Assembly (NCBI GenBank): GCA_036522515.1 | Contig: DATDFQ010000058.1 | Coordinates: forward strand, 1 to 64,000 | Length of the DNA stretch: 64,000 nucleotides | Source of the DNA: Bacteroidota bacterium | GTDB taxonomy: Bacteria > Bacteroidota > Ignavibacteria > UBA10030 > SZUA-254 | Direction: 5' to 3' | Shown: positions 47,118 through 59,449 of the stretch, piece by piece | How the letters are laid out: each line of letters starts with the position of its first letter | Position numbering within the stretch: the stretch's first letter is position 1 | Made by a program: the position numbers and the translations under genes | Notes under the pieces: generated by a model | Database searches by the model: none | What the model saw: the letters and a program-made list of their open reading frames with translations, nothing else | What the model was told of the DNA's origin: nothing

Positions 47118-48116
47118 TCACCCGCCGCCCACTCCGTCCGCTGGAGGGGAGCCCGGGTTCGTCATCGGTTCAAGCATCGCCACCACGACCTCACGCGGTC
47201 CCTCGAAGGGCTCCCGACCGTGCGCGGTGCGAATATTGTCCACGAGCAGCAGATCGCCATCCTGCCATCGCTCGCGTGCGGCGTTCGCATCGTACACTTC
47301 GTTGATCGCCCGGACGACGTCCGCTCCGAACGCTTCGCCGTCGCCAAAGCGGGTGTTGAACGGCAGCCCCTGCTCGCCGTAGAGGTCTATCAGGTATTCG
47401 CGCACTTCCGGATCGAGCGTCCATTCGTTCAGGAAAGCGATCTGGTTGAACCAGCACCGCCGGCCGTTAAGGGGGTGTTGTCGGATTGCGTTCCGCCGCT
47501 GCCAGGTTCGCAGCCCGCCGCCGGGCTGCCACTCGAACCTGATGGCGTTGGCCCGGCAATAACTCTCGACGGCGGCACGGTCGTTTGTGCCGAATGCCTC
47601 GGCGAACGACGCCCCGATCTCTTCATTATAATTGCGGATCAAGAGCCAACCCAGCCGCTCAAAGCGGCGGACCAACTCTGCGGGAAGCGCCTCAAGCACT
47701 GCGGCCGAATCGGCCACCGGGGTGGCTCCCCCGGAAGTTGCCGCCCTCAGGCATGCGAAGAGGATGAGGCCGGGGGGCGCGTGCAGATAACTGAGTTCGT
47801 GGTGCATGCACATCGCCTGGCCGGGCGGCCACTTGGACGCGGAGTAGACCCCCTGAGCATAGACGTGCCGGGGTGCGAATGCCTCTTTCTCTTCGATGAG
47901 GTTCCCCAATTGCCGGAAGACGGCACCGGCGCCTGCTGCGTCCCGGAGCCCCAGGCCGCGCACCATGAGCGAGCCGTGCTCATTTACAAGGTCACGCAAC
48001 ATGGCACAGTGCCCGGCAGCCCAGCGCACCGCGTCGCCGTTCGGTTCTGCAGTGAGCATCGGCGGCTTCCCGGGGCGCAAATCCACGTTGACGATGGAGA
48101 TCGAGGGCGAGCTCAT
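47118..48116 (-). CDS. TauD/SyrP/AsnO-like Fe(II)/2-oxoglutarate oxygenase
   Basis: A 332-residue non-heme iron oxygenase. The facial triad is H105-x-E107 (MCMHHELSYLH) plus distal H299 (DNIRTAHGREPF), and R308 is the likely 2-oxoglutarate clamp. HxE instead of HxD is the form seen in amino-acid beta-hydroxylases such as AsnO and VioC and in SyrP-type NRPS tailoring enzymes. Its ATG overlaps the NRPS stop by 4 bases (ATGA), so it is last in the six-gene operon and probably hydroxylates the free or carrier-bound amino acid. The hydroxylation target is inference. It converges with the exonuclease gene, 56 bases apart. Confidence 0.88.
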   Translation of the reverse strand: MSSPSISIVNVDLRPGKPPMLTAEPNGDAVRWAAGHCAMLRDLVNEHGSLMVRGLGLRDAAGAGAVFRQLGNLIEEKEAFAPRHVYAQGVYSASKWPPGQAMCMHHELSYLHAPPGLILFACLRAATSGGATPVADSAAVLEALPAELVRRFERLGWLLIRNYNEEIGASFAEAFGTNDRAAVESYCRANAIRFEWQPGGGLRTWQRRNAIRQHPLNGRRCWFNQIAFLNEWTLDPEVREYLIDLYGEQGLPFNTRFGDGEAFGADVVRAINEVYDANAARERWQDGDLLLVDNIRTAHGREPFEGPREVVVAMLEPMTNPGSPPADGVGGG

Positions 48117-49942
48117 TTCAGCACACCCCCTTCGCCTTTTCTATCGATCAACTCCGCCTGATCGGCGAGGATCGGGTGCGCCGTCACGTCCTTCGTGGAG
48201 ACCTCACGATCGAGAACAATCGCCAGCCTCACGGCGGAGAGCGATGTGCCCCCGAGGTCGAAAAAGTGATCCCGCCTGCCTATCTGTTCTTTGGCAATGC
48301 CAAGTACCTCCGCCCACGCGGCCGCCAACCGTTGCTCGGTCTTCGTGCCCGGCCCCTCGTGGCGTTGGTCGGCGTGATCGAGCTCTCCGGCGAGCGCCGT
48401 CAGCGCCTTCCGGTCGATCTTGCCGTTCCCCGTCAGCGGCAGCACGCGCCGCCAGGAGAAAGCGGACGGAACCATATACCTGGGCAGCAACTCGCCGAGC
48501 CGCTCCCGCATCATGGCGGGATCCACCTGGTCGCCTGAGTAGAAAGCCACCAATTGCCGGCTCTGGTCGGGGCGTTCCGTGATTACAACGGCGGCTTCGC
48601 TCACACCGGGGACACGGAGAAGTTTGTTCTCAATCTCTCCGATCTCTATCCGGAATCCGCTGATCTTCACCTGACTATCCTTGCGGCCGAGGTACTCCAG
48701 CTTCCCGTCAGGCAACCAACGGCCAAAGTCCCCGCTCCGATACATCCGTTGGCCCGGGCGGCACGGATCAGCGAGGAACGCCTGTTCCGTCCGCTCGGGA
48801 TCGTTGATGTATCCCCTGCCGACACAAACCCCGGAAAAGCAGATCTCGCCGGCAGCGCCCGCGGACACCGGCGATAGCTGTTCGTCCATGAGGTAGATGT
48901 TCACGTTACTGATGGGCCGGCCGAGGGGAACTCGCTCCCCGGACGGGGCCCGATCCATGATCTCGTGGTTGGTATCGTCCGAGGTTTCGGTGAGCCCGTA
49001 CGCGTTCACAAGTCTGATCCGGGGTTGAACCGCGAACCAACGCTCGACCAACTCCTTCTTCAAAGCCTCGCCCGTGGCCACCACATATTGGAGATCGGGC
49101 AACGAGCGCGGGGTCCGCGATAGATCGGAAATGAGTACTTCGAGGTAGGAGGGCACAACCTGAACGATATTGACTCCGGTTTCGACGATCCTCTGGAGGA
49201 ACCGCCCTGCGTCGAGAATGATCTCCTGCTCGACCAGGTGCGTGCGACCGCCTGCCAGCACCGCTGAAATCAGCTGCCAGAGAGAGATGTCGAAGCACTG
49301 TGGCGCCGTCTGGGCCACCACCGTTCCCTCGCCGATTTCGAGATCGTCGATCTTCGCGATGAGGTGGTTGAGCATCCCTTCATGCTCGCACATCGCCCCT
49401 TTGGGTTCGCCGGTTGAGCCGGATGTGAAGTAAATATATGCGAGCTGGTTGGGCGCCACGGGAATTCTAAGATCGCCGTCGGGATGATTTTCTCTGAATG
49501 CCTCCTCGATGAAAAACCTCCCGACTCCCGGCACCGAGTCGAGCGCCCGTTCGAGCATCACAATGCTGCCCCGTTCTGTCAGGACGAGCCGGCAACCCGC
49601 CCGCGAGAGCATTTTGGCGATTCGATCAGGGGGAAAATGCGGCTCGACGGGTAAGTACGCCCCGCCGGCCTTGAAGATTGCGATCACCGCGGTCAACCAG
49701 TCCAGATTGCGTTCGGTCACCACCCCCACGACACCTTCGCGTGAGAGCCCCCGTTTCACCAGAGCCCTGGCCAGTTGATTGGCGCGAGAATTGAGCTCCC
49801 GGTACGTCATCTGTCCGTTGCCGTTCGTGGCTGCGATGGCGGTCGGGCGCGCCCGGGCCTGGTCCTCGAAGAGTTCGTGGACCCGGCTATCGGGAAGGGT
49901 CCGGCTGGGTCCAACACCCTGCACACTGCCGGGGTCGATCAT
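48113..49942 (-). CDS. NRPS adenylation-carrier (A-PCP) protein
   Basis: A 609-residue single-module activator. A domain about 20-520: A3 TSGSTGEPKG (172-181), A5 NAYGLTET (313-320), A7 YRSGDFGRW, A8 GRKDSQVKISGFRIE, A10 NGKID with catalytic K508. The carrier domain has S567 in FFDLGGTSLS as phosphopantetheine site. Substrate-pocket positions by eye: D218-I219-W222 at the start and D322-D323 at the GrsA 330/331 positions, acidic residues that could bind a side-chain amino group as in diaminopropionate (inference). There is no C, TE or E domain. Both ends overlap neighbours by 4 bases (ATGA). Needs a 4'-phosphopantetheinyl transferase from elsewhere. Confidence 0.93.
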   Translation of the reverse strand: MIDPGSVQGVGPSRTLPDSRVHELFEDQARARPTAIAATNGNGQMTYRELNSRANQLARALVKRGLSREGVVGVVTERNLDWLTAVIAIFKAGGAYLPVEPHFPPDRIAKMLSRAGCRLVLTERGSIVMLERALDSVPGVGRFFIEEAFRENHPDGDLRIPVAPNQLAYIYFTSGSTGEPKGAMCEHEGMLNHLIAKIDDLEIGEGTVVAQTAPQCFDISLWQLISAVLAGGRTHLVEQEIILDAGRFLQRIVETGVNIVQVVPSYLEVLISDLSRTPRSLPDLQYVVATGEALKKELVERWFAVQPRIRLVNAYGLTETSDDTNHEIMDRAPSGERVPLGRPISNVNIYLMDEQLSPVSAGAAGEICFSGVCVGRGYINDPERTEQAFLADPCRPGQRMYRSGDFGRWLPDGKLEYLGRKDSQVKISGFRIEIGEIENKLLRVPGVSEAAVVITERPDQSRQLVAFYSGDQVDPAMMRERLGELLPRYMVPSAFSWRRVLPLTGNGKIDRKALTALAGELDHADQRHEGPGTKTEQRLAAAWAEVLGIAKEQIGRRDHFFDLGGTSLSAVRLAIVLDREVSTKDVTAHPILADQAELIDRKGEGGVLK

Positions 49943-51309
49943 CTTACGCCTCCCCCACCCGGCGCCACTTTCGTGAGCGATCGGTTTTCATTGAGTGACG
50001 GATCATACGGATTACGCGCAGCCGACCGGACGGCATCGCGCCGAAATGGCTGGTGTTCACCGTATGTCAGCGTCCGCCAGAGCCACTCGAGCGGTCCGAA
50101 CCGAAAATGGCGAAGCCAGATTGGGGCCATCACGAGTTGGGAGGAATAAATCGCGAAGACGATGAGGATCTGGCCGGTGCGGGGCACGCTCCCAAAATAA
50201 CCGAAACCGGTTCCATAAAAGATCATCGTGCAGATGAGGGTTTGCAGGATGTAATTCGAAAATGCCATGCGGCCAACGGCTGCCATCCGCTCCCTTAGGG
50301 CCAAAGCCCGCGAGCTCTGGCACCAGAGCATGACAAGGCCGGTCCATCCCAGCGCGACGAGATAGCTTCCCCAGTAGTTGTATTGCCCTCCCAGATAGGC
50401 CGAATATCCGGCGTCCCAGTTTCTCGAGAAGTTCTGAACGACCCCGAACAGGATCACGGGAATTCCAACGAGCAGCCCCGTCCCCATGAGCGCCCGGTAC
50501 CGCCCGCGGCTCCACCGCGCATGGAAAGCGCCGAGCTTGAACAGGGCCATCCCGAGGAGCATCAGGCTCGAGACCTTCCAGGCGTAAAATGTGAGAAACT
50601 CCGAGGTCTCTATGTCGAGCGCGCTCTCTACGCGGTCCGGCATCTGCTCGATCCAGGAGCCCCGATACGCCGCCAGCTCCTCGTTGATCGATTGCGGACC
50701 CGGCCGCCAGTCGTCGATGAAATCGGCTCTGCTCCCGGGAGAGAGGTGCGGTACCCAGAACAAAGCGAGTCCGATTGCGATCAGCGAGCCGATCGCCGCC
50801 AGAACCAGAGCATAGGATACGAGCGTCCCCGGGCTTTTGCGCCGAACAAGGTAGGCGAAAAGCCCGCACATTCCGAACGTATAAAGAATGTCGCCATACC
50901 AGAGCAGATACGCGTGCAGAAGCCCGAACAGGATCAGCCAGCCCATCCGCCGATAATGGAGGCGCGTCGCCCGGGCTCCCGACCGTTCCGCATTCTGCCA
51001 CATGAGAACGATGCCCGCCCCGAACAGCATCGAGAATATCGAAATGAATTTCTGATCCGCCAGCAGGTGCGAGAAGAGCCACACGAGGAAATTTGTCCCG
51101 GTCAGATCGCCGTACGCCGCCGGATTCTGGTACACCGCCTCCACCATCGCGAACAATTGGATATTCATCACGAGGATTCCGAGCAGCGCAAAGCCGCGCA
51201 GCACATCCATCGGGACGATCCGTTCCGTTTCGCCCACAGGCCCCGCAAACGCCCTGCCGCCCGCGGCAGAGGTCAATCCGTCGTGGTCTCGCAAGCTCAC
51301 GGCAGTCAT
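49939..51309 (-). CDS. DUF418 family membrane protein (YeiB-like)
   Basis: A 456-residue integral membrane protein with about 10 hydrophobic helices and the family N-terminus ERIVPMDVLRGFALLGILVMNI. The C-terminal DUF418 region ends in LEWLWRTLTYGEHQPFRR. The family is distantly related to membrane acyltransferases (HGSNAT/DUF1624), but its biochemical role is not established. ATG at 51309 was preferred to an upstream GTG (51336) because GAGGGAG stands at SD distance and it avoids a 26-base overlap. It sits between the two NRPS pieces and is coupled at both ends, so it may acylate or move the product (inference). Confidence 0.85.
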   Translation of the reverse strand: MTAVSLRDHDGLTSAAGGRAFAGPVGETERIVPMDVLRGFALLGILVMNIQLFAMVEAVYQNPAAYGDLTGTNFLVWLFSHLLADQKFISIFSMLFGAGIVLMWQNAERSGARATRLHYRRMGWLILFGLLHAYLLWYGDILYTFGMCGLFAYLVRRKSPGTLVSYALVLAAIGSLIAIGLALFWVPHLSPGSRADFIDDWRPGPQSINEELAAYRGSWIEQMPDRVESALDIETSEFLTFYAWKVSSLMLLGMALFKLGAFHARWSRGRYRALMGTGLLVGIPVILFGVVQNFSRNWDAGYSAYLGGQYNYWGSYLVALGWTGLVMLWCQSSRALALRERMAAVGRMAFSNYILQTLICTMIFYGTGFGYFGSVPRTGQILIVFAIYSSQLVMAPIWLRHFRFGPLEWLWRTLTYGEHQPFRRDAVRSAARNPYDPSLNENRSLTKVAPGGGGVR

Positions 51310-51310
51310 C

Positions 51311-53791
51311 CTATATCTCCCTCGCCGGGTTGCCACCCCACCGCGCTCCCGGCGGAATAGTCTCCCCCTTCATCAGAAAGGAGTCCGCCGCGAGCACCGC
51401 GCCATCCCCCATCGTCACGCCGTAGTGCACGAACGCGCCCACCCCGATGGTGCAGCCGGAGCCAATCGCGATGGGGCCCGATTTATAGGTGCCGTCCTCC
51501 TGCGAATCACACTGGACAATGGTTTGCTGATTGAGCACGCACTCGTCCCCGATGACGGTGAGCGTCGGCTCGGAGATGAAGACGCCGTCGTCGAACACCC
51601 TCCTGCCGAACTTCACACCTATCAGACGCCAGAGAATGCTCTTGAACGGCGTGCCATCGAAGAGGTGAAGGAAGTTGATCGGGTGCAGCTTCCAGACGCG
51701 CTCAACCCACCAAAAACCCCGGTCATAGATCGAACAGATGGCCGGCGGTGGCGGGCCGAGCGCCTCGAACCACCGTTCCACGAGCGCGTAGTAGGTCGCG
51801 GCGACCACAGCGCTGAGGGCGAACATCGCCGCCATGACCGCATGGCCGAATGCGTCGGCGAATAACTCGAGGGCCGCAAGGTCGATGAGCGCTATGAGGA
51901 AAACACCGAGCCACCGCGTGGAGAGAAAGATGCCGATCGTCCAGAGGTTGAAGCGGTTCTTCGCGGCCAGGCCCCGGCGCAGCGCTTCGCCCGTGCGCAG
52001 ATGGTCGAAGCGGCTGTCGCGCTCGACGGACCGCGGAATCTCAAAAGGCGGCGACCCGAGCAGGCCCACCCCTTCCCGAATCTTGCCGTCGATCGGGACC
52101 ATGACCTTCGTCCCGAGCAGGACGTTATCGCCCGTCCTCCCGCCGGCGGGGTAGGTGACGTAATTGCCCAGGAAGTTGCGGGGGCCTATCGCCGCCTGCG
52201 ACAGTCGGAACGACGAGCTCGAGATCTCATCGGTGATCACGTTCAGGCCGTCGGCGACCATGGTGCCGGTACCGACGGACGTCAGGAAAGGGTACGAGGT
52301 GGTCACTTCGCTGCCAAAATTCGATCCGGTTTGCACGAAGGGCGTGAGGCGATAGCCGGCCCACCTCAAAAAGTGGACGATGTAGGAGCTGTCACCGAAG
52401 AGCATCGGATAGAACCGCAGCCTGCTGAGAGCCGCGGTGAACCGGTAGAGGGTGTAGCGGAACCCATAAAGCGGATAGACCGTATCCGGCTTGATGAAGA
52501 TCCTCAACGCGCGGGGGACGGTGCCGATGGCGAGGAGACCGACGAGCATCTCGCCGAAGAAGAGAACGGACGAGAAGGCAAACGCCTCGATCAGGAGTCC
52601 GCTCGCCGTCAAAACACCGGCGCCGGCGTGCACGCCCGGGTCGAGCATCTCGACCAGTGAAGACACCTGGGCAAACAGAATCCCCAGGCCAAGCTCGAGG
52701 AGCGGGGCGGCGATTAACAGGATTCTGATCAGCGTGAGGGCGCCGGAAACGGCCCGTCGGACCGTGCCGTTCCCCCCGGGAGACGGCGGAATTCGCAAGT
52801 AGTTGGTTTCCGTGCGCAGCGCCGGGGATCCGTGCCATCGCTCTCCGGCCGGCACCGCCTGACCGCGCAGGAGCGCGGAGGAATGACCGAGCTGCGCTCC
52901 GTCGCCCATTGCGGTATCGATATCGAGGACGGACATCTCGCCCACGAAAACGTTCCGGCCGAGAGTCACAGGTCCGATCTCTATCCGGCCGGCCTGCGCC
53001 CGGTAGCAGAGGAGGCTCGCCTCCCTGCGGATGACCGTTCCCGCGCCGATCGTCAGCAGGTCGGTGCAGACGGGGATGCGCCGCGAGAGGATCACCGCCC
53101 CGGCGCCGACTTTGGCGCCCAGCGCCCGCAGATAGAGACCGTACAGCGGCGAGCCGACAAACAGGTAGGGGGCTGGATTCGAATGAATCAGTGTCTTGAC
53201 GATCCAGAAGCGGACGTACCCCAGGCTCCAGAGGCGAATCTTTCGCGCCTCCCAGCGGCCGACCAGCAGCCATTTCGCCGCAATGGGCACCGTACATACG
53301 ACCAGGAAAACCACGCCGCCGAAGAGCACGAGGCGTACTATCCGCTCGGCGCCCGCAGCTCCGGCGACGAGCGATTGATAGCCCCCCAGGGCAGCGAGGA
53401 CGCCGAGATACGAAAACCCGAAGTAGAAGAGGGCCTGCAGGGCACCGGCTACCACGTACTCGCGCGAGACGATAGGTGTAGGTGGATCCGGCGCCTCCGC
53501 TGTCGGGGTGCCGGCGGGATGGGCGGGAGTGGCTTCTGCGACCGCCGCCGCGAGGCCGCTGATCGTCGGATGCGCGTAGACGTCTTTCATCGAGATCGAC
53601 GGCAGGCCGCCGCGCTTTCTCACCCGCGCGCAGAAATGCGCCATGACCAGCGAGTCCGCCCCGAGGTCACAAAAGAAATTGCTATCCACAGAGACGCGAT
53701 CGAGCTTCAGCACTTCAGCGAGCAGCTCGGCGAAGCCAGTCTCGACGTCCGTCGCCTCGTCCGGGAGATGCTCCTCAACGGCCGTTCTCAT
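51311..53791 (-). CDS. carrier domain plus Pls-type membrane/LbH terminal domain
   Basis: An 826-residue protein. Residues 15-85 are a carrier domain with S47 in FFCDLGADSLVM. From about 108 on, pairs of TM helices (about 110-175, 350-425, 620-690) alternate with three left-handed beta-helix (hexapeptide, acetyltransferase-like) blocks, for example VGAGAVILSRRIPVCTDLLTIGAGTV, TGDNVLLGTKVMVP and IGSGCTIGVGAFVHYGVTMGDGA. This is the terminal domain (TIGR02353-type) that follows A-T in epsilon-poly-lysine-synthetase-like NRPSs and forms the amide bonds there. Here it is detached from the A domain and has its own carrier. ATG at 53791 overlaps the SbnB-like stop; the upstream open frame inside that gene is a shadow. 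Confidence 0.88.
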   Translation of the reverse strand: MRTAVEEHLPDEATDVETGFAELLAEVLKLDRVSVDSNFFCDLGADSLVMAHFCARVRKRGGLPSISMKDVYAHPTISGLAAAVAEATPAHPAGTPTAEAPDPPTPIVSREYVVAGALQALFYFGFSYLGVLAALGGYQSLVAGAAGAERIVRLVLFGGVVFLVVCTVPIAAKWLLVGRWEARKIRLWSLGYVRFWIVKTLIHSNPAPYLFVGSPLYGLYLRALGAKVGAGAVILSRRIPVCTDLLTIGAGTVIRREASLLCYRAQAGRIEIGPVTLGRNVFVGEMSVLDIDTAMGDGAQLGHSSALLRGQAVPAGERWHGSPALRTETNYLRIPPSPGGNGTVRRAVSGALTLIRILLIAAPLLELGLGILFAQVSSLVEMLDPGVHAGAGVLTASGLLIEAFAFSSVLFFGEMLVGLLAIGTVPRALRIFIKPDTVYPLYGFRYTLYRFTAALSRLRFYPMLFGDSSYIVHFLRWAGYRLTPFVQTGSNFGSEVTTSYPFLTSVGTGTMVADGLNVITDEISSSSFRLSQAAIGPRNFLGNYVTYPAGGRTGDNVLLGTKVMVPIDGKIREGVGLLGSPPFEIPRSVERDSRFDHLRTGEALRRGLAAKNRFNLWTIGIFLSTRWLGVFLIALIDLAALELFADAFGHAVMAAMFALSAVVAATYYALVERWFEALGPPPPAICSIYDRGFWWVERVWKLHPINFLHLFDGTPFKSILWRLIGVKFGRRVFDDGVFISEPTLTVIGDECVLNQQTIVQCDSQEDGTYKSGPIAIGSGCTIGVGAFVHYGVTMGDGAVLAADSFLMKGETIPPGARWGGNPAREI

Positions 53792-54801
53792 CGGGCAGTC
53801 TCGTAAAAAAAGTCCGTTACCCGGAGGTCTTGCCCTGAGGCGACCGCCTGGTCGTACACCCACTTGCCGACCGCCACATCCAGGATCCCCATACCGAAGG
53901 GGGAAAAAATGATCGGCCGCTCCCGGTTCACCGACCGGTGACCCAGGATGATGTCGCTCAAAGTGCCCGTGACGAAGGCCCGGTTCCCGGTCTGCTGCTC
54001 GGTGAGATGCGGGGAAGTATTTGCCTTCATGACATGATCCACATCGTCGACCACGTTCTGGGATCTGAGGAGGATTCCGGGGGCCAGATCGCGAAGCGAG
54101 ATGTGCAGGACCAGCGGGTTGTGCCCGAACAGCGCCGGATCGGTGATGTGAGGAGCGGAGGCGACCGTCGTGAAGACGATCATGTCGGACTCCCTGAGAA
54201 GCTCCGTCACTTCGGAAACGGCCCTCACCGTGCGATGGAGCTCGGGGCGGCACGCCGTGTTTCGAAATTTCTCGCTCTCGGAAGGCAACGCGTCGCACAG
54301 GCGGACGTTATCGATCGCCCATCCCGTATCAACCAGGAAGTCGTAGACGTACCGGGCGATAAATCCCGTGCCCACGATCCCCAGCGTGCGAGCCCTGCGC
54401 TCCCGCCCATTCATCCAGTACGCGGCGAGAGCGGCCGATGCCGCCGTGCGCGCAGCCGAGATGATCGAGCTTTCGATGATGGCAAAAGGGTATCCGGTCT
54501 CGTAACTATTAAGCACGAGCACCGCCGAAGCGCGCGGAAAGCCGCGCCGGACGTTCTCAGGAAAACTGGCGATCCACTTCAGTCCTGCAACGCCCACCCC
54601 GTCTCCCAGGTAAGCCGGAAGCGCAATGATCCGGCAGTCCGGCTTGTCGGGGAACCGGAGGAAATGGCTGTCGGGATTGACGGTCTGATTGTTGGCGTGC
54701 GCGAGATAGGCATCCCGAACGACGTCGATGCACTCCGCGCGATGCGCGCGGATGACATCGGAGACTGTCTTGCCATTGATGATCGAGATCGGGAATTCCA
54801 T
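53788..54801 (-). CDS. SbnB-like dehydrogenase for 2,3-diaminopropionate synthesis
   Basis: A 337-residue member of the ornithine cyclodeaminase/mu-crystallin family. NAD-binding motif LGIVGTGFIARYVYDFL (about 140-156) and active-site lysine K75 in AGLKWIASFPEN, with DPALFGHNPLVLHISLRDL typical of SbnB. In known pathways SbnB oxidises N-(1-amino-1-carboxyethyl)-glutamate to L-2,3-diaminopropionate and 2-oxoglutarate. It follows the SbnA-like gene by 9 bases and is coupled (ATGA) to the carrier/LbH gene, so the amino acid is very probably the building block of the assembly line. It could otherwise be an ordinary OCD-family enzyme; the SbnA neighbour argues against that. Confidence 0.87.
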   Translation of the reverse strand: MEFPISIINGKTVSDVIRAHRAECIDVVRDAYLAHANNQTVNPDSHFLRFPDKPDCRIIALPAYLGDGVGVAGLKWIASFPENVRRGFPRASAVLVLNSYETGYPFAIIESSIISAARTAASAALAAYWMNGRERRARTLGIVGTGFIARYVYDFLVDTGWAIDNVRLCDALPSESEKFRNTACRPELHRTVRAVSEVTELLRESDMIVFTTVASAPHITDPALFGHNPLVLHISLRDLAPGILLRSQNVVDDVDHVMKANTSPHLTEQQTGNRAFVTGTLSDIILGHRSVNRERPIIFSPFGMGILDVAVGKWVYDQAVASGQDLRVTDFFYETAR

Positions 54802-54810
54802 GGTCGTCCG

Positions 54811-55878
54811 TCAAAGTTGGGCTGCCCACGACGGGTTGAATACCGTATCAAGGTATGCCGTTCCACGGTCAGCGCACAGGAACAGGACCGTCGGGAGCTT
54901 CCCGTTATGCATCCGCCATCTGTATCGTTTGATCGCAGCGTAGGCCGTCCCGCTCGACCCGCCCACCAGGAGTCCATGGGTCATGAGCAGCTCGCGGCAC
55001 GCTTCCACAGTTTCCCGCTCAGGCACCAGCACCACGTCGTCGATGACGGCATGAGATAACAACGGGGGGACGATGCTCGAGCCGACGCCGGGAATATGGC
55101 GCTTCGCGGGCGTGTCACCGAAAATGACAGATCCCGCCGCGTCAACGGCGATGATCCGGATGGAGGGATAGCGCAGTTTGAGCCGTCGGGACATACCCGC
55201 GATGGTTCCCGCAGTGCTCACGCCGATGAAGGCGTAGTCGAGCGAATCGAACTCAGCGCATATCTCCCCCGCGGTGAGCTCGTAATGCGCTTCCATAGCG
55301 TCCGGGTTCCCATACTGGTTGGTCCAAAAGGAATCCGGTATACTGGCGCACAGCCGCTTCACCATATCCAGCCGGGTCTTGAGAAACCCTCCGGTGTCGT
55401 CGCGCTCCTCAACCTTCACCACCCGCGGACAGAGACGGCGAAGGAACGCTTCATACGTTCCGGAAATGTTCGGATCGATTACCGGTATGAACTTGAGCCC
55501 CAGCAGGTGCGTGTAGGCGGCAAGGGCGCAGGCGAAATTCCCGGAGGAGGACTCTATCACCGTGGTCTCTTCGGAGATCTCTCCCCTCTCGGCAGCCCGC
55601 TTAAGAATCCAGTAGGCCGAACGGTCCTTGACACTTCCGACGGGATTGGTGTATTCAAGTTTCGCGAAGAGCCGCATCCCCTCCATGGTGAGCGGCACAT
55701 GAGGCGTGGGCCGCAGTATTTTGCGGAGCTGCTCTAGGCGGGTAACCAGATCGGGGGCCCTTTTGGGTACCGGGCGGATTTCCGGAAACGGACTCCGGAA
55801 GGCTCTGCCTACAGCCGGAGAGCGCATTTGGAACCCGAAGTCCGGGCTAATGTCGCTGTATCTTTTGATGTAGGTCAT
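54811..55878 (-). CDS. SbnA-like PLP enzyme for 2,3-diaminopropionate synthesis
   Basis: A 355-residue cysteine-synthase-fold enzyme. The PLP lysine is K84 in NPVGSVKDRSAYW, the phosphate-binding and substrate loop is ESSSGNFACALA, and GVSTAGTIAGM is the second PLP-phosphate loop. In known pathways SbnA joins O-phospho-L-serine and L-glutamate to make the SbnB substrate. ATG at 55878, preceded by GGAGGG at ideal SD spacing; the 29 extra codons upstream lack support. First gene of the six-gene operon, with nothing else coding in the 316 bases upstream. Confidence 0.88.
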   Translation of the reverse strand: MTYIKRYSDISPDFGFQMRSPAVGRAFRSPFPEIRPVPKRAPDLVTRLEQLRKILRPTPHVPLTMEGMRLFAKLEYTNPVGSVKDRSAYWILKRAAERGEISEETTVIESSSGNFACALAAYTHLLGLKFIPVIDPNISGTYEAFLRRLCPRVVKVEERDDTGGFLKTRLDMVKRLCASIPDSFWTNQYGNPDAMEAHYELTAGEICAEFDSLDYAFIGVSTAGTIAGMSRRLKLRYPSIRIIAVDAAGSVIFGDTPAKRHIPGVGSSIVPPLLSHAVIDDVVLVPERETVEACRELLMTHGLLVGGSSGTAYAAIKRYRWRMHNGKLPTVLFLCADRGTAYLDTVFNPSWAAQL

Positions 55879-56194: not shown

Positions 56195-59100
56195 CTACCG
56201 AACCAACACGAGCTTCCTTGTTTGTGTGAACCTTCCAGCCGATAACCGGTAAAAATAGACTCCGCTTGCCATACCGGTCGCATCCCACTGAACGGACTTG
56301 AACCCCGCATCCTGAACCCCATCCACAAGTGTTGCGACTTCACGCCCGAAGAGATCATATACTTTAAGCACGACCGGCGTTGGGGTCGGAATCTCATAGC
56401 TGATGATCGTTCGGGGGTTGAACGGGTTCGGGAAATTCTGGTAGAGCTTGAATTCCGACGGGATGCCGGCCGCCAGGCCCTCCCGGACCCCGGTAACTTC
56501 GTTCTGGACGAAGATCGAGTCGTCGATTGTCCCGTCATTCCCGAGATCGATCAGGATCTTCAAATTGGACCCGGGAGAAATGGCATTCCAATCCGGCTGA
56601 ATGATGTGGGACGAATTTCCGTCCAATGTCACCTGGTCATGCCTGAAGCGTTTGCTCCCGGTACTCGCGTCCAATTCGAGTCCCAGCCTGTACGTTCTCG
56701 AATCTGAACCGTACATGTTGAGTTTGAGCCCGTCGGCGGGAAGGTTCTCAATTCGTACGGAGTCGTCCATGGAGATCGGCAGCGATCCGATTGTCCAGAC
56801 ATATTCCCCGATTCCAAGGTTGTTCTTGTTGACAACATCCGTCAGGTTGATCGTCTTCGATCCGGTATCCGGATTTGAGACGGAGAGACTTCCGTCGAAG
56901 GTGAGATGGTCCGTCTGCGTGCTGCTCGATCCGGAGCGATCGAACAGGAATGTTCTGTTCCCGGTCGAGAGAAACACATGCGATTTGTCCCCCGGGAAAT
57001 CGCTCAGAGTAATCGCGTATCTATTCGTGGGAAGTCGATAGCCATACGGGGGCGACGCGCTTCCGTTGAGAAGCATCAGGGGATGGGCGCCGGGCAGGGT
57101 ATTATGAATGACACTGTCGGAGTACCCAATCTCCCCTCCCAACGTGTCGAGTACCCGTATCGCCGCTCCGGAGATGGGGTGGATCTCGAGAGTGTTTGGA
57201 GAAAGAAGAAACGGGGTTACGCTACGCTCCGGAGGATGCTTTGGTAATGTCGGATTGTTCAGGTAGAGCACAGACGGGTCTGCGAGGACTAACCCTGCAT
57301 CCCCTCCCCACCCTGGCCAGAGCGGGAATTCCCACGTTCCATTACCCCCGTTCCCTGCCGTATCAATTGTGATTTCCGCATTGAGGACGCCATTGTGAGC
57401 ATTATCATAAACCCCAATGCGGTAAATGCTCCCGAAGGAGGGGTCCTTCCAGACTTTATACGGAAGAACCGAGTGAGCGCCACTCCCATGATTGTTATAG
57501 ATGTTGAACGTGTGAACCGCGGCTTCGTCACTTAAGAGGCGTTCCTTCAATTCACGCAGAGTCACATTCGGAGTCTTGGAACTGACCGCGTCGAAGTTGC
57601 TCTGGTGCGGTTCGCCAAACTGGTGGGTGAAGACCTCATTGATGACGGGTATCGTGTTCGTATCGGAGTGGACGTCGTACGCAATGTCATAATCAGGAAA
57701 CCGCGTGTACTTGTTTCTGAAATCGAACTTGTAACGAAAAGCGATGGCGTTGGAAATCGCGAACCCAAAACACGACCCGCCCCACACTCCTTTGACGCTG
57801 GCCCATCTCAGGACTGCGGTGGGCGAGTAGGTAGAATTCGCGACATTCTGGTAACAATGGGTGACCCCGAAGGTTCGGACAAACGAAATCCAGTCGGGGT
57901 GATCCGCGGAGAGAGCGTTCAGGAATATCTCGGTCGTGACGGGCTGACCCGTCGCGTAACTTGCTCCGGTATAAGGGTCGATACCCGAATAATCGAATTT
58001 GTTCGTCCAGGAGAGGGGCCAGACTTCATACGGGGTATTCCCGAACCCCCATCGGTCGGACGCGGAGTTGTACTCGAGATATTCGTTCGTGGGTGAGAAT
58101 TTAGTGAGGACATATCCTTTTATCACGAAGGGGCCGCTCTCGTCGAACAGGGTATCGTTTGACGCAGACTCGATTTTGATGCGTGCATGAGCGGCCGTTG
58201 TATCGGGAATAGTCCAGACGTATCGCCCCAGGACCGCCGGATAGGCGTTCTCAATCAGTCGCCAGCTTTGCCCGTCGTTGATGCTATACCAAAGGATGAC
58301 ATTGGAACCGGGCGGGAGCCCGTTCAACCACCGAATAGTATCCTGATCTCCGCTGACCGACCGTTCGCCTCCCCGTGGACTGGTCAGGACGATACTCTGC
58401 GATTTCTTCAGGAGAACGGCTTGTTGCCGGCCGGAGCGGATTGCGGTTGCCAGGATGTCCCCGCGATTATTGACGGCTGTCGCGACGATAAGCTCCCATC
58501 CCCCGGCGGTGTCGGCGACATTGTTGAGGTCGGTCATGACACCATCTCTCCAAACAAAGGCGTGGTTGAGATTTCCCTGAAGGCTATGAACCCACGAAGA
58601 GGCGCCGACAACTTCGGTCGAGTCGTTAATCGAGAACGCCTCGGAGAAACCGGGAAAAGGATCGGGCGCAGCAAGGAACCCAAGGTCCGTCATCCCCCCA
58701 TTGCTCGCAATGAAGGCATAGGATTCCGACGCTGCAATTTTTGTGGAGCTTCCAACAACCTGTCCGAGGTTATTGATTCCGCGCGCGTCGGATAGATTTC
58801 CTCCCAACGTGCCCAGGTCAGACATGCTTCCGTTTTGCCAGCGGAAAGCGTGCCTGAGAGTGTCATTGACTTCAGATTGGCCGGCAATCTGCCCGATGTT
58901 GTTGATCGCTGCTCCGAAAGATCCAATTCCAAGCGTGCCCAGATCTGTCATCGAGCCGCCTTCCCATACAAAACCATGAAAGATACCGGTATCATTGCTT
59001 ATGATTGAGCGCCCCGCAACGTGTCCCGAATCGTTGATATCCCGCGCCTCAGAGTACGGTCCGCCGAGCGTACCAAGGTCGGTCATGATGCCGTTCTGCC

Positions 59101-59422
59101 ACCGGAAGGCATGACGGCTGCCCGCATTCCCGGGGCTCCAGGAAGAACCAACAACCTGCCCGGCTCTGTTGATACCGTACGCCTCGGTCGAGCCGCCCGG
59201 GTAGAGGGTCCCCAGACCCTGTTTGGAACCGTCCTTCCATACCGAAGAAACGAAAAGGTCGCCGCCGGGCCAATCGATCGTCACGACCTCGTCCGAGTCG
59301 TTGAGGTCGGTCGCCAGGTACGACTGCACGTCGATGAGCCTGTAGGCCTGAGAAGAGGCCGTTGACGAGAAAACTCCCAGCGTAACAACGAACACAAGGA
59401 GAATCGGGAAATAAGTTCTCAC
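56195..59422 (-). CDS. secreted HAF-repeat protein with peptidase-like core and T9SS tail, paralogue 2
   Basis: A 1075-residue exported protein with the same domain order as the one at 35039-38293. Signal peptide to about 25 (ending TASSQ), HAF repeats about 65-335 (DLGTLGGPYSEARDIN), Ig-like domain, then the unassigned domain with C551 (VWGGSCFGFA), H650 (GAHSVLPY) and D673/N674 (VYDNAH). The C-terminal T9SS tail is YQNFPNPFNPRTIISYEI...GVYFYRLSAG. GTG at 59422 was chosen because GAAAGGA is at SD distance; a TTG 15 bases earlier would contain the SD. Promoter at 59450-59477. Confidence 0.85.
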   Translation of the reverse strand: MRTYFPILLVFVVTLGVFSSTASSQAYRLIDVQSYLATDLNDSDEVVTIDWPGGDLFVSSVWKDGSKQGLGTLYPGGSTEAYGINRAGQVVGSSWSPGNAGSRHAFRWQNGIMTDLGTLGGPYSEARDINDSGHVAGRSIISNDTGIFHGFVWEGGSMTDLGTLGIGSFGAAINNIGQIAGQSEVNDTLRHAFRWQNGSMSDLGTLGGNLSDARGINNLGQVVGSSTKIAASESYAFIASNGGMTDLGFLAAPDPFPGFSEAFSINDSTEVVGASSWVHSLQGNLNHAFVWRDGVMTDLNNVADTAGGWELIVATAVNNRGDILATAIRSGRQQAVLLKKSQSIVLTSPRGGERSVSGDQDTIRWLNGLPPGSNVILWYSINDGQSWRLIENAYPAVLGRYVWTIPDTTAAHARIKIESASNDTLFDESGPFVIKGYVLTKFSPTNEYLEYNSASDRWGFGNTPYEVWPLSWTNKFDYSGIDPYTGASYATGQPVTTEIFLNALSADHPDWISFVRTFGVTHCYQNVANSTYSPTAVLRWASVKGVWGGSCFGFAISNAIAFRYKFDFRNKYTRFPDYDIAYDVHSDTNTIPVINEVFTHQFGEPHQSNFDAVSSKTPNVTLRELKERLLSDEAAVHTFNIYNNHGSGAHSVLPYKVWKDPSFGSIYRIGVYDNAHNGVLNAEITIDTAGNGGNGTWEFPLWPGWGGDAGLVLADPSVLYLNNPTLPKHPPERSVTPFLLSPNTLEIHPISGAAIRVLDTLGGEIGYSDSVIHNTLPGAHPLMLLNGSASPPYGYRLPTNRYAITLSDFPGDKSHVFLSTGNRTFLFDRSGSSSTQTDHLTFDGSLSVSNPDTGSKTINLTDVVNKNNLGIGEYVWTIGSLPISMDDSVRIENLPADGLKLNMYGSDSRTYRLGLELDASTGSKRFRHDQVTLDGNSSHIIQPDWNAISPGSNLKILIDLGNDGTIDDSIFVQNEVTGVREGLAAGIPSEFKLYQNFPNPFNPRTIISYEIPTPTPVVLKVYDLFGREVATLVDGVQDAGFKSVQWDATGMASGVYFYRLSAGRFTQTRKLVLVR

Positions 59423-59449
59423 TGCTTTTCCTTTCAAACAGATCGTTCA

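Follow-up and report, generated by a model that had tools for sequence, protein, structure and literature searches.

Among the closest described systems are synthetases of cationic homopolymers. In Streptomyces albulus PD-1, PDAPs is accompanied by NjxA and NjxB, and L-2,3-diaminopropionate (Dap) comes from a cysteine-synthase/ornithine-cyclodeaminase pair. PDAPs has a carrier followed by a membrane-spanning terminal domain, and contains neither a condensation nor a thioesterase domain (PMC4668381). PosA, the delta-poly-L-ornithine synthetase of Acinetobacter baumannii, likewise has a carrier and a TIGR02353 terminal domain (available part of PMC10522769). The described cationic homopolymer synthetases found in the literature searched possess their own adenylation (A) domain. 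Here we describe a six-gene cluster in a 64,000-nucleotide stretch of DNA from a Bacteroidota bacterium (the window), which shares both the type of Dap-forming pair and the order of carrier and terminal domain. Its synthetase is split between two proteins, one with a carrier and a Pls/PosA terminal domain (T-Pls), and one with the A domain and a second carrier (A-T).

The six-gene cluster

The cluster occupies the following positions of the window:

54811..55878, minus strand: SbnA-like pyridoxal phosphate enzyme, predicted first step of Dap synthesis; 355 residues from ATG 55878; TIGR03945, 407 bits (cut-off 350)
53788..54801, minus strand: SbnB-like dehydrogenase, predicted second step of Dap synthesis; 337 residues; TIGR03944, 434 bits (cut-off 327)
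51311..53791, minus strand: T-Pls, carrier and then Pls/PosA terminal domain, without an A domain; 826 residues; PF00550 and TIGR02353 (674 bits, cut-off 423)
53540..53731, minus strand: carrier domain of T-Pls, motif GADSL; PF00550, residues 21-84
51323..53452, minus strand: Pls/PosA terminal domain of T-Pls; coordinates of the TIGR02353 match
49939..51309, minus strand: DUF418 protein, predicted HGSNAT-like transmembrane acyltransferase; 456 residues; PF04235, 150 bits (cut-off 23.6)
48113..49942, minus strand: A-T, stand-alone adenylation and carrier protein, pocket code DIWQVTADDK; 609 residues; TIGR01733 (390 bits, cut-off 317) and PF00550
48203..48334, minus strand: carrier domain of A-T, motif GGTSL; PF00550, residues 537-580
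47118..48116, minus strand: TauD-family Fe/2-oxoglutarate (2OG) oxygenase, ligands His105, Glu107, His299 and Arg308 at positions mapped from DdaC; 332 residues; PF02668 TauD, 150 bits (cut-off 27)

Along the minus strand, from 55878 down to 47118, the gene order is SbnA, SbnB, T-Pls, DUF418, A-T and TauD, and the successive junctions are a 9-base gap, a 4-base overlap, a 1-base gap and two further 4-base overlaps. For the SbnA-like gene, more in-frame starts lie upstream of ATG 55878, up to TTG 55965. Families were assigned with Pfam and NCBIfam profiles against curated or gathering cut-offs, and the PF00550 carrier was present in both synthetase proteins (37 and 47 bits; cut-off 20.8). The frames and profile matches bore out the genes, order, position and tight junctions reported in an earlier note on this DNA. 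The note had also proposed that the SbnA/SbnB pair supplies Dap, unless the two proteins grouped with ordinary cysteine synthases and ornithine cyclodeaminases. They did not, as those models scored far lower and under their own cut-offs, while both equivalog models were above theirs. All ten SbnA and SbnB proteins from five distant loci also exceeded these equivalog cut-offs. The proposed Dap supply is supported.

Neither Pfam nor NCBIfam profiles revealed an A domain within the 826 residues of T-Pls. Its carrier directly precedes the terminal domain, and its hydropathy peaks fall into three groups (residues 117-172, 354-433 and 618-670). Ser47 in the GADSL motif of the carrier was invariant in 51 aligned rows. 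The cluster holds two carriers, one per synthetase protein, and only one A domain, which is most simply explained if the T-Pls carrier is loaded in trans. Such loading has a precedent in the Dap A domain CmnA-A1, which charges the CmnI carrier (available part of PMC12400406). Among 51 aligned Pls proteins we also observed an invariant His303 in the first soluble stretch and a nearly invariant His789 in the third, with an invariant Asn543 in the second. Perhaps only two of the three T-Pls units have kept a catalytic His.

Relatives and genomic setting

GTDB species genomes were scanned with T-Pls. The best 80 of 95 confirmed relatives were kept; the window and a plasmid locus (L084) were added, and the resulting 82 loci were classified. 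A locus was called split if its A-T protein was encoded on its own and shared 50% identity or more with that of the window, and gene presence was scored by tblastn with the window's proteins within the fetched flanks. Forty-nine loci (window included) were split, 19 encoded a fused A-T-Pls protein, and 14 were of other kinds, many of them short contigs. All five core genes (SbnA, SbnB, T-Pls, A-T and TauD) were present in 45 of the 49 split loci, a recurrence far beyond chance. Two of the incomplete loci (L006 and L050) lacked SbnA, and their contigs begin inside SbnB or just before it. Another contig ends in A-T (L021), and L047 was without detected TauD and SbnB. Neither SbnA nor SbnB was detected in the flanks of the fused loci (0/19), and TauD was found in one.

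The split loci were distributed over Actinomycetota, Pseudomonadota, Acidobacteriota and Gemmatimonadota in addition to the window's lineage, and thus over at least four named phyla. The hosts included Streptomyces, Pseudonocardia, Amycolatopsis, Geodermatophilaceae, Pseudogulbenkiania, metagenome-assembled genomes (MAGs) of gamma- and alphaproteobacteria, Acidobacteria and Gemmatimonadetes, and the SbnB-Pls junction was seen on three Rokubacterial contigs (L004, L012 and L013). The window's T-Pls fell in a five-member set, the other members being three Gemmatimonadete rows and one gammaproteobacterial MAG, and Pseudogulbenkiania joined one level out. Within the window's phylum only its own genome had the system among 395 sampled. 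A match was found in one of 79 other near relatives, a genome of the same genus, in which SbnA and SbnB (both 78% identical) and the start of Pls follow the window's order until the contig stops. The window's lineage likely gained the cluster horizontally. SbnA from four of the five distant loci was merely 37-42% identical to the window's, as if the SbnA/SbnB pair had been replaced across loci with its function kept.

The number of Pls carriers varied among the split loci. One was counted in 39, two in eight (L047 being doubtful), four in one (L081) and none in one, so that tandem carriers occurred in 9 of 49 (one doubtful). Two of the 19 fused proteins, both from Pseudonocardia, had three. 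The A-T proteins varied at the N-terminus, where 46 of the 49 carried an extension of at least 200 residues (possibly overestimated where the frame continues). All 14 N-terminal stretches that were aligned matched PF00668 at E values up to 0.1 (best 3.6e-10), and the one matching member shown was under the curated cut-off. A profile of these stretches matched solved condensation domains over their C-terminal half (in McyA, residues 205-454, E 1.9e-19). The half expected to hold HHxxxDG, the condensation-domain motif, was missing. The extension appears to be a decayed condensation domain, with half of it left. It is wholly absent in the window and in L006; in the third exception, L047, the A-T match itself is incomplete. 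In the window, DUF418 occupies the place of the half domain.

The A domain belongs to another type than that of the fused proteins. Pocket residues were extracted by script, under a position scheme whose motifs the PosA code quoted in PMC10522769 also uses. The third pocket position is Trp222 in the window, and it was Glu in all 18 of the 19 fused loci in which this position was covered. In the available part of PMC10522769, this Glu is reported as conserved in all cationic homopoly-amino acid (CHPA) synthetases, and A domains not involved in polymers may have an acidic residue at another position. The Trp in place of Glu therefore indicated an A domain of nonribosomal peptide synthetase (NRPS) type.

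In the host genome (3.5 Mb, 99.89% complete), the cluster's T-Pls was the sole one of two TIGR02353 matches to exceed the cut-off, its A domain the sole one of six TIGR01733 matches, and its DUF418 protein the only match to that family. Two phosphopantetheinyl transferase (PPTase) family genes lie outside the cluster (136 and 272 residues), and their lengths suggest AcpS and Sfp types. MbtH was looked for in the genome and not found. The Sfp-length gene (contig C43, near 224 kb) adjoins a 274-residue frame with a match to the beginning of an A domain, a second NRPS-like locus. Five genes flanking the cluster were scanned (a response regulator/HATPase, a B12-radical SAM protein, a 5'-3' exonuclease, a secreted protein with a sorting tail and a solute-binding protein). 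None had a link to the pathway, and the unit was therefore taken as six genes. Upstream of the cluster, a 1080-residue open frame (56195-59437, minus strand) just missed the Por_Secre_tail cut-off (26.1 bits against 27), which suggests that the host has a type IX-like secretion system.

Some further Pls genes were observed in other settings. Two Streptomyces plasmids, of Streptomyces sp. CdTB01 and pI of S. mirabilis, encode a Pls with a carrier and have no A-T gene annotated nearby. CDF transporters and CopC adjoin the former; a P-type ATPase and ArsR adjoin the latter, in which a DUF418 gene also lies about 1.9 kb upstream. There could be a link between the Pls product and metals. A contig filed under a Nitrososphaerales archaeon (L082, 1-1799) encodes a Pls-type domain whose best segment is 43% identical, the result of either genuine transfer or misbinning.

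Proposed pathway and competing explanations

The pocket code is strongly conserved, as the other 48 split loci all showed DIWQ-[S/V/A/L]-T-[A/V]-DD. That the A domain activates Dap is inferred from neighbouring genes, since the 45 complete split clusters hold SbnA and SbnB and plasmid relatives of A-T adjoin likely diamino-acid genes. The three best-ranked of these relatives are 55, 50 and 43% identical to A-T. On plasmids of Kitasatospora (L083) and Streptomyces (L086), the relative stands beside a PALP enzyme, a GHMP kinase and an ASL-type lyase, a set that we take to be a route to 2,3-diamino acids. In L135 a relative with the code DIWELTADDK directly precedes annotated sbnA-sbnB. Two of the next-ranked regions, H5 (DAWQFGLIDK) and H6 (DIWELCADDK), showed no such diamino-acid genes within 5 kb. 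The Kitasatospora and Streptomyces clusters (A-T 55 and 50% identical) also hold ATP-grasp domains, and likely make undescribed 2,3-diamino-acid peptides.

The iron ligands of the oxygenase were conserved in all 51 aligned family members and the 2OG-binding Arg308 in 50, with one gap. TauD was also found beside fused Pls in Pseudonocardia, both in L052 and on two plasmids (L090 and L091), where it lies 29 bases behind the Pls gene. In L083, where the stretch covered contains no Pls, it accompanied a DIWQ-type A-T protein. These settings would suit a substrate that is a short amino acid on a carrier, or an oligomer of it. In the available part of PMC12451424, DdaC epoxidises a carrier-bound acyl-Dap, and its Glu94 meets the substrate amine in simulation. 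The DUF418 protein has a predicted structure that Foldseek matched to the HGSNAT fold (PDB 8vli and others) at 14% identity. Of the candidates for a catalytic histidine, His132 was invariant among 57 aligned DUF418 proteins and His81 present in at least 90%. In the genomes of three relatives, the sole DUF418 gene sits in the cluster.

Direct observation covers the genes themselves, their profile scores, the residues of the pocket, what relatives conserve and the predicted fold; the steps of the pathway are inferred. SbnA and SbnB would form L-Dap, as expected from their families. The A domain would activate it and load both its own carrier and, in trans, that of T-Pls. By analogy with DdaC, the oxygenase may then oxidise a Dap unit, or the chain, while it is bound to a carrier. 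Between its membrane helices, T-Pls has soluble stretches that would make isopeptide bonds repeatedly without a condensation domain, as Pls and PosA suggest. Finally, the predicted fold of the DUF418 protein implies that it might pass an acyl group through the membrane onto an amine of the product. We consider it evenly balanced whether the cluster makes a beta-linked oligo- or poly-L-Dap, which TauD likely oxidises and DUF418 likely acylates.

The earlier note had the right genes and the right theme, and needs correction on the A domain, the role of DUF418 and rarity. Its split Pls-type NRPS is supported in the division between T-Pls and A-T and in the TIGR02353 match, and fails for the A domain, which lacks the CHPA Glu. 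Nor is the five-gene core peculiar to this bacterial group, as it recurs in several phyla. The suggested membrane export finds no support in DUF418, which is a predicted acyltransferase. Beta-hydroxylated Dap would be chemically awkward because the beta-carbon already carries an amine: free Dap hydroxylated there would be a hemiaminal, stable only with the beta-nitrogen acylated, as in an isopeptide chain.

Several observations weigh against a tailored poly-Dap. No characterised homopolymer synthetase with this Glu-less pocket, and no instance of the code DIWQVTADDK, was found in the literature searched. TauD is no proof of Dap, since its relatives in L085 and L134 adjoin an A domain with the Ser-like code DVWHVSYVDK. 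The position of DdaC Glu94 is Lys in the window and Lys, Ala or Pro in 44 of 51 members, so the substrate is probably placed differently. For DUF418, the match to HGSNAT reached an E value of 7e-3 at best; the gene was inside only 4 of the 49 split clusters by tblastn, and the family is a common one, present in 38 of 48 genomes searched. Seventeen of the 49 A-T proteins are longer at the C-terminus by about 255 residues. In L016, the one tested, this extension is a thioesterase, and a small product that is released would fit equally well.

Such a product is what the first competing explanation proposes: Pls would make one or a few amide bonds and the oxygenase an active group on carrier-bound Dap, and a small compound, not a polymer, would be released as in the dapdiamide pathway. 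The Pantoea vagans pPag2 operon, annotated with sbnA, sbnB and ddaG, has the kernel SbnA-SbnB-TauD-A-T in common with the window, which together with the thioesterase argues for this view. However, A-T is only 31% identical to the Pantoea protein and has a different code, and neither ATP-grasp nor DdaG was found among the six genes or the five scanned flanking genes. No other part is as constant as the Pls domain, and the tandem carriers in some relatives fit repeated use. We regard a small Dap-derived molecule as unlikely. A Dlt-like system, in which T-Pls and DUF418 transfer Dap to a surface lipid or polymer and make the envelope more positive, seems a good deal less probable still. A stand-alone A domain with a carrier and a membrane acyltransferase does resemble the logic of D-alanylation, and HGSNAT-type enzymes act across membranes. 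DltA models were among the A-domain matches, at 281 bits and below cut-off. But the same set of six plus five genes contains none for making an acceptor, most clusters lack DUF418, and PosA and PDAPs, which share the terminal domain, yield free polymers in the available parts of their reports (PMC10522769, PMC4668381).

The A domain might also activate Ser or another small acid, with Dap entering elsewhere, for example as a free acceptor, to give a mixed product. The window's Trp (position 3) and Asp (position 9) recur in the codes DVWHFSLVDK (L135) and DVWHLSLIDK (L136), which presumably mean Ser, and the TauD neighbours in L085 and L134 point the same way. Against this, the window and all 48 split relatives have another Asp, at position 8, where one would be expected if an additional charge is to be bound, and the three best plasmid relatives sit in likely diamino-acid clusters. 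CmnA-A1 is moreover an example of a Dap A domain that rejects Ser (available part of PMC12400406). Activation of Ser or another small acid has a slim chance of being correct. Returning to the oligo- or poly-Dap, we tentatively extend it to a horizontally spread architecture, a proposal that we hold to be somewhat doubtful. Here Pls would have shed its loading domain, and an A-carrier protein of NRPS origin would take over that task in trans. The condensation domain of this protein would have been halved and, in this lineage, lost. TauD would oxidise the chain on the carrier and an HGSNAT-type enzyme would N-acylate it across the membrane, so that members of at least four named phyla would make tailored polydiaminopropionates.

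Comparison with known systems

If the split system works as proposed, modified cationic oligomers are to be expected from many Streptomyces and Pseudonocardia in culture, and from Pseudogulbenkiania, and a function would be suggested for one branch of DUF418 proteins. A natural split form, with its tandem carriers in some hosts and its oxygenase and acyltransferase genes, would also give direct access to the way in which Pls forms isopeptide bonds when its carrier is loaded in trans.

Among systems without a Pls domain, dapdiamide biosynthesis has a similar kernel. DdaA-DdaD (L133) likewise encode SbnA, SbnB, TauD and A-T together, and the substrate of the oxygenase is a Dap derivative attached to a carrier (available part of PMC12451424). 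Over 257 residues, the two TauD proteins share 38% identity. However, the A-T proteins are 31% identical, with the code DS-DIGVINK against DIWQVTADDK, DdaC Glu94 is replaced by Lys, and ATP-grasp, DdaG and AsnB stand where the window has Pls and DUF418. Capreomycin resembles the window in the trans loading by CmnA-A1, but uses ordinary condensation domains and makes a mixed peptide (PMC12400406, in part). In streptothricin ORF19/ORF18, a stand-alone A-domain protein grows an isopeptide oligomer from a carrier-bound diamino acid. It differs in using beta-lysine and in that the A-domain protein itself forms the bonds, a mechanism called disparate from that of epsilon-polylysine by its authors (available part of PMC9606270).

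PDAPs and PosA are nearer in the terminal domain. PDAPs is a single A-carrier-terminal protein, while the A domain of the window is separate and of another type; PDAPs homologues have Phe and Glu at the second and third pocket positions, against Ile and Trp. In the available part of PMC4668381, PDAPs is introduced as not co-located with the Dap genes and no oxygenase or DUF418 protein is described, whereas in the window all genes are adjacent and both are encoded. The SbnA/SbnB-type pairs of S. albulus and S. aureus are also reported there to differ in their substrates. PosA differs in having its own A domain, with the code DMEHNGTVSK, and a single-gene operon (available part of PMC10522769). 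Although two defining features of a CHPA synthetase, the fused A domain and its pocket Glu, are missing, T-Pls falls within TIGR02353, and we class the system as a variant of the Pls kind that is split and tailored.

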